Program-made: the position numbers and the translations under genes
The notes under the pieces: model-generated
Told to the model about the DNA's origin: nothing
The model's input: the letters and a program-made list of their open reading frames with translations, nothing else
The model's database searches: none
Shown here: positions 30,119 to 30,738 of the stretch, piece by piece
How positions within the stretch are numbered: the stretch's first letter is position 1
Layout: each line of letters starts with the position of its first letter
DNA from: Alphaproteobacteria bacterium
GTDB lineage: Bacteria; Pseudomonadota; Alphaproteobacteria; CAAGCB01; CAG-977
DNA: 43,263 nucleotides
NCBI GenBank assembly: GCA_017480385.1
Contig: JAFVAT010000035.1
Span: 1 to 43,263, forward strand
Direction: 5' to 3'

Positions 30119-30181
30119 ATGACGGTTTATGGCTATATCAGAGTCGGCACGGATAAACAGACGACGGAAAACCAAAAGTGA
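30119..30181 (+). pseudogene. 5' stump of a serine recombinase (resolvase/invertase), catalytic Ser replaced
   Basis: Twenty codons reading MTVYGYIRVG followed by TDKQTTENQK match the start of serine recombinases (normally YIRVSTDKQT). An AAAGGGGA site sits about 9 bases upstream. The nucleophilic serine of the YxRVS motif is glycine, and a TGA ends the frame where the family would continue for over 160 residues. Nothing downstream restores the frame. It is a dead fragment marking an old mobile element. Confidence 0.75.
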
Positions 30182-30293
30182 CAAAACCACTTAATATTTT
30201 AGGTCTTATTATGTAGGGATTGTCTGTTTTTATGGCTTCGCTTGGAATCTTTATTTCAATATCATTTCTGTTGATTTTTTCTGTTCTTGTCAT
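30138..30293 (-). pseudogene. possible gene fragment opposite the recombinase stump
   Basis: A 51-codon frame beginning MTRTEKINRNDIEIKIP has protein-like composition for its first 35-40 residues, then runs antisense through the recombinase stump and stops. It suggests a second, unrelated fragment joined at about 30180. No family recognised. It could be chance. Confidence 0.2.
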
Positions 30294-30340
30294 TTTTTTT
30301 CATTTCGTCAGTTAAAGCTATACCACCACAAAACAAATCA

Positions 30341-30545
30341 GTCGCCGTGCTTTAAAGGCACAGGCGACCGGGAGTTAACAACTGCAACGAAACAGCATGA
30401 TGCTTTTGGCGTAATGCTTGAACATAGCATCATCTTCCGGTCATGAAACATGATCGGGAGAAGTTTTTTGATGTCGGTTTGCCTTAGACCGTTCGTTGAG
30501 AGGTTGTTAAGCCCCACTGTCGAAGCCGACAGCGGATTCAGAATA
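30341..30545 (+). ncRNA. structured RNA-like element, possible orphan HEARO/omega RNA
   Basis: Four stems nest in an ordered layout. Stem 1: GTCGCC (30341-30346) with GGCGAC (30363-30368), enclosing GTGC/GCAC (30347-30350 with 30358-30361). Long-range stem: TTAACAAC (30375-30382) with GTTGTTAA (30503-30510). Inside it are ATGATGCT (30397-30404) with AGCATCAT (30426-30433), and CTTCCGGTCATG (30434-30445) with CATGATCGGGAG (30449-30460). Last stem: CTGTCG (30517-30522) with CGACAG (30527-30532). The 5' hairpin with GCACAGGC is reminiscent of the RNA that accompanies IscB/IsrB (HEARO/omega RNA). No nuclease gene is adjacent. The minus-strand open frame over it is most likely a by-product. The family name is a hypothesis; the folding potential is direct. 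Confidence 0.4.
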
Positions 30546-30657
30546 GCATACAAAAAGATACAAATAAGTTTTTTGTCATCGTCAGAAAATGTGTAATCAG
30601 CAAAGAGTTAGAAAAAACTTATTGAAACGATAACAAATAAAATTAAATATAGGGATT

Positions 30658-30738
30658 TTATCCCTGCATTTTCCGTTTTTGCACCTCGATCAGTTCCGCG
30701 ATTTTTTCGCTGACGATATTAGCGGAAGCAACAGTGTT
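30658..30738 (-). pseudogene. C-terminal stump of an unknown protein
   Basis: Between two stops, 26 codons read NTVASANIVSEK then IAELIEVQKRKMQG, a strongly coding-like amphipathic helix ending at a TAA. There is no start codon or ribosome site. An AGGGAT-TTT-ATCCCT palindrome (30651-30665) covers the stop. Most likely the surviving 3' end of a deleted gene. Family not recognised. Confidence 0.35.

Follow-up and report, generated by a model that had tools for sequence, protein, structure and literature searches.

A probable C4-type antisense leader before accessory genes of Alphaproteobacteria, related to RNAs by which phages hold genes off

The window, by which we mean the whole 43,263-nucleotide stretch of contig JAFVAT010000035.1 (Alphaproteobacteria bacterium) that was analysed, carries a structured element at 30341-30545, flanked by gene remnants on the minus strand. 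Upstream of the element lies a 17-codon stub of a tyrosine integrase C-terminus (30682-30732, minus), which was detected by tblastn with the intact integrase of the relative G007 as query (76% over 17 aa, E = 0.002); in G007 the intact integrase stands ahead of the element, at the same place as the stub. Downstream, a gene start (MTRTEKINRNDIEIKIPSEAIKTDNPYIIRPKILSGFV, 30180-30293, minus, a 51-aa frame) belongs to a gene that is cut at about 30180, after about 38 codons. A search for relatives of this truncated gene gave nothing convincing; related genomes carry intact genes at its place. An earlier note on this DNA had called the element an orphan, a description that does not hold: wherever the flanks of relatives are long enough, a gene nearly always comes after it, and in the window that gene is the truncated one. 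With its downstream gene truncated and no more than the stub left of the integrase, the window copy probably represents what remains of an integrated element. On the opposite strand, a short frame at 30119-30182 (plus; MTVYGYIRVGTDKQTTENQK, then a stop), which we take to resemble the start of a serine recombinase, abuts the cut end of the truncated gene.

Read 5' to 3' on the minus strand, the element consists of a variable hairpin, a target site (a1b1), a middle hairpin, box A', box B, hairpin 2, an antisense segment (a'b') and box C, followed by a terminator-like hairpin that begins inside box C, and then by an RBS and a start codon. In the window copy the first of these is a predicted 5' leader hairpin (CTGTCGGCTTCGACAG, 30516-30536), found in relatives at the same position with variable sequence. 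The target site a1b1 occupies 30489-30515 (a1, 30490-30498; b1, 30502-30515) and is the antisense of a'b', and the middle hairpin (CGGTCT..., 30475-30491) has a shortened loop. Box A' (CTCCCGATC, 30452-30460) is the alternative partner of box B (GACCGGAAG in the window, 30434-30442), the 5' arm of an outer stem whose partner is A' or C. Hairpin 2 (ATGATG...CATCAT, 30397-30433) contains the conserved core GTTATGTxCARGC...GCYAAAAGC, which in the window reads GCTATGT where the consensus has GTTATGT. The antisense segment (30374-30392) comprises the hairpin loop (30385-30392) and a linker (30374-30382). Box C (CTCCCGGTC, 30366-30374), which shows one mismatch to the window's box B in the alignment, is the 3' arm of the mature sRNA-like outer stem, and its last three bases are the first three of the stem of the terminator-like hairpin T (GTCGCC...GGCGAC, 30341-30368; T-rich tail, 30329-30340). 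A domain resembling sRNA-Xcc1 (RF02221) spans 30358-30442 (minus; 24.2 bits, gathering score 53), and a weak match to c4-a1b1 (RF03163) covers 30496-30546 (minus; 26.0 bits, gathering score 46.7, E = 0.00036). The whole window contains no Rfam family at gathering score; snoU54, trypanosomatid LSU and other weak matches near the element, all under that score, were treated as chance, and no tRNA or tmRNA was found.

The fold described in the earlier note, with 5' and 3' hairpins, a long-range closing stem and two internal hairpins, was borne out at 30341-30545. Its 5' hairpin corresponds to hairpin T and its 3' hairpin to the 5' leader hairpin, and the internal hairpin with a three-base loop proved to be boxes A' and B paired. 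The organised complementarity claimed there is real: the plus strand of 30320-30560 folded at -87.3 kcal/mol, against a mean of -57.6 kcal/mol over 200 dinucleotide shuffles (z = -7.45). The minus strand of the same interval folded at -76.8 kcal/mol (z = -4.44 against dinucleotide shuffles).

Strand was assigned by two independent signals. RNA tolerates G-U pairs, and in an alignment of 23 copies in the window-minus sense G-U cells outnumbered A-C cells in the consensus stems including B:C (56 versus 5), in the A':B stem (25 versus 7) and in the terminator stem (14 versus 4), which argues for the minus strand as the RNA strand. Moreover, the downstream gene start in relatives lies on the strand equivalent to the window's minus strand. 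Judged by these signals, the functional RNA strand is the minus strand. On that strand the roughly 16 bases before 30341, which had been proposed as a guide, are the T-rich tail of the terminator-like hairpin, and the six T that seemed to end a plus-strand transcript early cease to be a problem. A coding origin for the minus-strand frame at 30338-30553 was likewise not upheld, nearly every frame being broken by stops in the homologues. A conserved small ORF starting from GTTATG was also rejected: indels between copies break the frame, and it was not counted as coding, although IsrK orf45 shows that an ORF can be translated without its amino acids being conserved. On the plus strand, the A':B hairpin and the six T after it (30433-30469) score as a terminator, and many relatives retain the A-run after the middle hairpin, equivalent to this plus-strand T-run, so that the element may terminate opposing transcription as well.

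The earlier note had likened the element to HEARO/omega RNA, which would be read from the plus strand and used in trans by an IscB/IsrB-like nuclease. A complex fold, an association with mobile elements and a likeness of motifs speak for this idea, and the element is indeed a real structured RNA that travels with mobile and accessory genes; the HEARO identity itself did not survive. The HEARO model (RF02033) had no match in the window at gathering score, around the element up to E = 10 or in the genome at E <= 1, and a profile search with PF01385 found no TnpB in the genome, which also disposes of a TnpB-linked RNA. Furthermore, the G-U bias and the gene orientation indicate the minus strand, and a conserved internal antisense pair is not known as a feature of omega RNA. 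What the element has in common with HEARO is a complex fold near mobile-element debris, and we give this reading practically no chance.

The helices were examined for compensatory change. Of the 55 pairs that RNAalifold predicted from the first eight copies, 19 showed compensatory changes, and in the 23 copies every helix tested was supported, with none of 500 shuffles matching the observed percentage of paired cells or the covariation score; as these copies are mutually related, their covariation and permutation statistics are inflated, and 35 held-out loci are much more diverse. Shifting the partner by one to three columns sharply lowered both measures. Among the 23 copies, the B:C helix was 99.0% paired with 34 cells changed on both sides (0/500), A':B was 81% paired with 19 double-change cells (0/500), and a1b1:a'b' was 81% paired with 65 double-change cells and 12 pairs showing a double change (0/500 for both cells and score). 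The terminator stem was paired in 97% of cells (19 double changes), hairpin 2 in 100% (double changes at four of six pairs) and the middle hairpin in 91.9% (four of seven pairs). Boxes A', B and C form a covarying triple, which suggests that B pairs with each of the other two. Two mutually exclusive folds follow: a precursor fold made of a1b1:a'b' and A':B, and a mature sRNA fold made of B:C, the base of which overlaps the terminator stem. As read from the alignment, both are conserved by compensatory change, and the mature fold as a whole was 94.8% paired with 109 double-change cells in the 23 copies.

In equilibrium folding of full-length sequences the B:C stem was never predicted, and blocking a1b1 did not lower terminator formation. 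The switch is therefore not given by equilibrium folding alone, and a kinetic or processing step would be needed. A simple antiterminator, in which the sRNA occupies a1b1 and the resulting B:C stem weakens the terminator, was unsupported by equilibrium folding and stands as a kinetic possibility.

The antisense relation was assessed on the logic that an a'b' segment should fit its own target better than the targets of other loci. In the 23 alphaproteobacterial copies, pairing with the own a1b1 gave -31.3 kcal/mol versus -19.1 kcal/mol in permutations (0/20000). In the 35 held-out loci, later finds of the covariance model outside the set used to build it, pairing of a'b' with the upstream site gave -32.2 versus -23.4 kcal/mol (0/20000). 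The sequence after the terminator, where an RBS target would lie, gave no signal in the 23 copies of the window's clade (6532/20000), and windows farther upstream or downstream yielded no antisense signal of note. Part of the held-out loci also carry an RBS site, including copies from the window's own genus. The a'b' and a1b1 sequences diverge fast and are unlike among paralogues of one genome, yet they stay complementary, and in one genome with three paralogues each a'b' paired best with its own a1b1. This best fit to the own site suggests, at the level of predicted pairing, that copies are insulated from one another. Cross-talk is likely among six copies of a family-level group (L121, L123, L124, L128, L130 and L131), which have a common RBS sequence (GGATTGTTCRGARATG) complementary to a common b' (TTTCTGAACATCC). 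The elements of this group precede mostly lipoproteins and exported proteins.

The earlier note had also considered a solo element, and homologues proved to exist both in related genomes and in the window's own. Among 96 genomes searched at the DNA level, five related ones carried the element, two of them in two copies each. The core pattern was found in 27 stretches of genome contigs, almost all named Alphaproteobacteria or Hyphomicrobiales and one Novosphingobium; viral contigs had no match to it. Searched with a covariance model built from the 23 copies, 52 of 385 alphaproteobacterial genomes proved to carry the element, the richest with 11 copies; within the window's family 10 of 12 genomes had it. 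The window's own genome contains two further, more distant copies of RF02221 type (L083 2426-2510 and L084 3482-3568), both with a terminator after the sRNA and an RBS site, before probably exported proteins, one of them an outer-membrane barrel. They are apparent intermediates between classic RF02221 and the window form. The same genome has a match to STnc490 (RF01405) under gathering score (L084 246-354, minus; 49.6 bits, gathering score 56).

In relatives a gene, its start called by a simple Shine-Dalgarno rule, begins a short distance downstream of the element, usually with a Shine-Dalgarno sequence. Among 19 such alphaproteobacterial genes, three encode PD-(D/E)XK nucleases and three match the candidate defence family PDC-S26. 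Other products are a GIY-YIG-like protein, a DUF4268 protein and an HNH protein, the last two with PADLOC matches to the PDC-S11 and PtuB models, as well as outer-membrane barrels, lipoproteins, small acidic proteins and small proteins without assignment. Antirepressor families had no matches among the alphaproteobacterial downstream genes. By these annotations, the alphaproteobacterial elements precede candidate anti-phage nucleases and surface proteins. A hairpin with a T-run was present after the sRNA in 21 of the 23 copies and before it in one. A sigma-70 promoter was visible at suggestive spacing in some copies; overall the signal was not significant (2/23 at p <= 0.1), and none was found in the window copy.

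That different genes stand behind similar elements, that integrases lie nearby in G007 and G001, and that RF02221 is known from integron cassettes (PMC12444791) could point to a function at the DNA level, as a recombination site or the end of a mobile cassette folded as a single strand like attC. A DNA element would have no need of the strong bias of G-U over A-C, which favours RNA. The fixed position and orientation before start codons and the conserved terminator-like hairpin also count against it, and six genomes contained no integron integrase over the curated cut-off. We consider a DNA-level element very unlikely, and an integron attC was rejected.

The closest known family is sRNA-Xcc1. 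Seven first homologues of the element scored 30.6-40.6 bits with RF02221 over its full length (positions 1-87), on the strand equivalent to the window's minus strand and, like the window copy, under the gathering score. The topology is the same, with an outer stem, two hairpins and an antisense loop plus linker, and so are the conserved core, the a1b1 upstream and the gene just downstream on the same strand. REINTERPRETING sRNA-Xcc1 (RF02221) had matches in 62 of 398 Pseudomonadota genomes, and similar sequences occur in phages; in the annotated phages Aaphi23, Pmp3 and Acinetobacter phage 4316 an RF02221-type RNA lies directly before an ant or KilA-N gene. Across 31 loci, the RF02221 loop and linker are antisense to the upstream site (-27.95 versus -21.10 kcal/mol, 0/20000) and also to the RBS of the next gene (-19.25 versus -13.54 kcal/mol, 0/20000). 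As far as predicted pairing goes, this gives the family a full C4 layout, with a1b1 upstream and a2b2 over the RBS of its own gene. Domains among 33 downstream proteins were Bro-N (7), Phage_pRha (3), P22_AR_N (2), KilA-N (2), AntA (1) and SymE (2), in agreement with PHROGs. Location upstream of symE in Xanthomonas integrons (PMC12444791) fits the scheme of a C4-like leader. Two TwoAYGGAY RNA matches just over gathering score lie near one sRNA-Xcc1 copy (L063 2372-2494 and 2791-2857).

The element differs from sRNA-Xcc1 in several respects. The genes behind sRNA-Xcc1 are often antirepressors or SymE, whereas those behind the element encode nucleases, surface proteins and small proteins. The window's clade has no a2b2 over the RBS, although some other alphaproteobacterial copies have an RBS site. 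The element's terminator follows the sRNA, whereas among the RF02221 loci and P1 a terminator-like signal preceded the sRNA at 26 of 37 and followed it at three, in a scan by simple criteria in which the stretch upstream of the sRNA was larger than that downstream; two of the three RF02221 loci with a terminator after the sRNA are the further pair of copies described above for the window's own genome. In Rfam output RF02221 has no clan, and C4, c4-a1b1 and c4-2 belong to CL00128; among the open PMC papers searched, sRNA-Xcc1 and C4 come together in no more than a joint listing in one table.

sRNA-Xcc1 has been described as a trans-acting sRNA (PMC2996969), a precedent for taking the element as a free-standing sRNA gene with distant mRNA targets, placed before genes incidentally. 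The antisense segment is complementary specifically to the upstream site of its own locus, in RF02221 also to the RBS there, and a gene starts at short distance, which makes a free-standing gene highly improbable. The Xanthomonas RNA accumulates as a discrete 88-nt species (PMC2996969), and this bears on another alternative, a purely cis-acting attenuator or riboswitch-like leader in which folds and terminator answer a protein or metabolite and no trans sRNA takes part. A terminator after a folded domain, exclusive folds and a clade without RBS target would all suit such a leader. Fast divergence of a'b' and a1b1 with complementarity kept is unlike a ligand pocket, however, and the extra complementary RBS site of RF02221 relatives argues for antisense action; the discrete RNA likewise speaks against a purely cis-acting leader. 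We judge the attenuator rather unlikely.

With the C4 RNA of P1 and P7 (RF01695) the element shares the order of a1b1 followed by an antisense RNA, as in the P1 immI region used as yardstick (promoter, a1, b1, c4, a2, b2, icd), and in both the antisense segments lie in the second-hairpin loop and in the linker before the 3' arm of the outer stem. Weak matches to c4-a1b1 (RF03163) occurred in three copies of the element. RF01695 itself had no match in the window or its homologues, with P1 as positive control at 68.8 bits. In P1 the terminator-like signal lies between a1b1 and c4, whereas in the element it follows the sRNA. The window's clade also lacks a2b2 and icd/ant, and since it has no RBS target the translation block of C4 cannot be the mechanism there.

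A further likeness is to IsrK/orf45-STnc1160 of Gifsy-1 and to seqA-CI-seqC of P4, with which the element has in common a long-range pairing of a 5' segment and two exclusive structures. In Gifsy-1 IsrK, long-range pairing of the 5' segment with sequence farther downstream produces the inactive structure A, and the alternative structure B is active; these exclusive structures have been studied experimentally, the locus also supplies a short trans-acting RNA, and the authors compare the system to P4 (PMC4825925). The exclusive long-range structures of the IsrK type (RF01394) are present in the element, where both folds covary. In IsrK and P4 a single short RNA acts on the long transcript of its own locus (PMC4825925), an action that in the element we only infer. 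The IsrK terminator precedes the downstream complementary part, and its short RNA is the 5' segment; a terminator so placed was found in one of the 23 copies. In the element the terminator comes after the antisense domain, and a short RNA ending there would hold both strands of the pair. In P1, an Rfam isrK match under gathering score (L086 731-812; 35.1 bits, gathering score 50) covers a1b1 and the next terminator-like hairpin, which links IsrK and the P1 immI leader.

Taken together, the comparisons establish a layout of a1b1, an sRNA domain with a predicted antisense a'b', a terminator-like hairpin and, in intact relatives, a gene. Quite probably, the element is a gene's 5' leader, read on the minus strand and carrying a C4-type antisense RNA within it. 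It is an alphaproteobacterial form related to the RNAs by which phages hold genes off. In such a leader most transcripts would end at terminator T, and processing would free an sRNA extending from B to C. Acting in trans, this sRNA would base-pair with the a1b1 of newly made transcripts of its own locus, and the pairing would set which fold forms and thus read-through into the gene. Transcription, processing, trans action and the sign of control are all inferred, with IsrK as the precedent for the class of mechanism (PMC4825925). On balance, repression of a costly gene with a specificity private to each locus is the likely default, favoured by the precedents of P1 C4 and P4 CI; activation is conceivable instead, since the trans RNA of Gifsy-1 IsrK can activate.

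Beyond the single element, we are inclined to place sRNA-Xcc1 and its alphaproteobacterial relatives, C4, P4 CI and IsrK in one superfamily of self-antisense leaders that extends beyond phage immunity. The alphaproteobacterial form would be derived, with the terminator behind the antisense RNA, and would serve as a largely private switch for each accessory gene, up to 11 per genome. Many genome annotations list sRNA-Xcc1 as a virulence-linked sRNA that acts in trans and has no known target; it now has a testable local one, namely its own leader and the RBS of its own gene, as in phage C4. The alphaproteobacterial form constitutes a widespread leader that Rfam misses at its cut-off. That C4-like antisense leaders are standard silencers of costly, horizontally acquired genes becomes a testable proposition, and the family may offer a naturally occurring collection of RNA regulators that differ in specificity.
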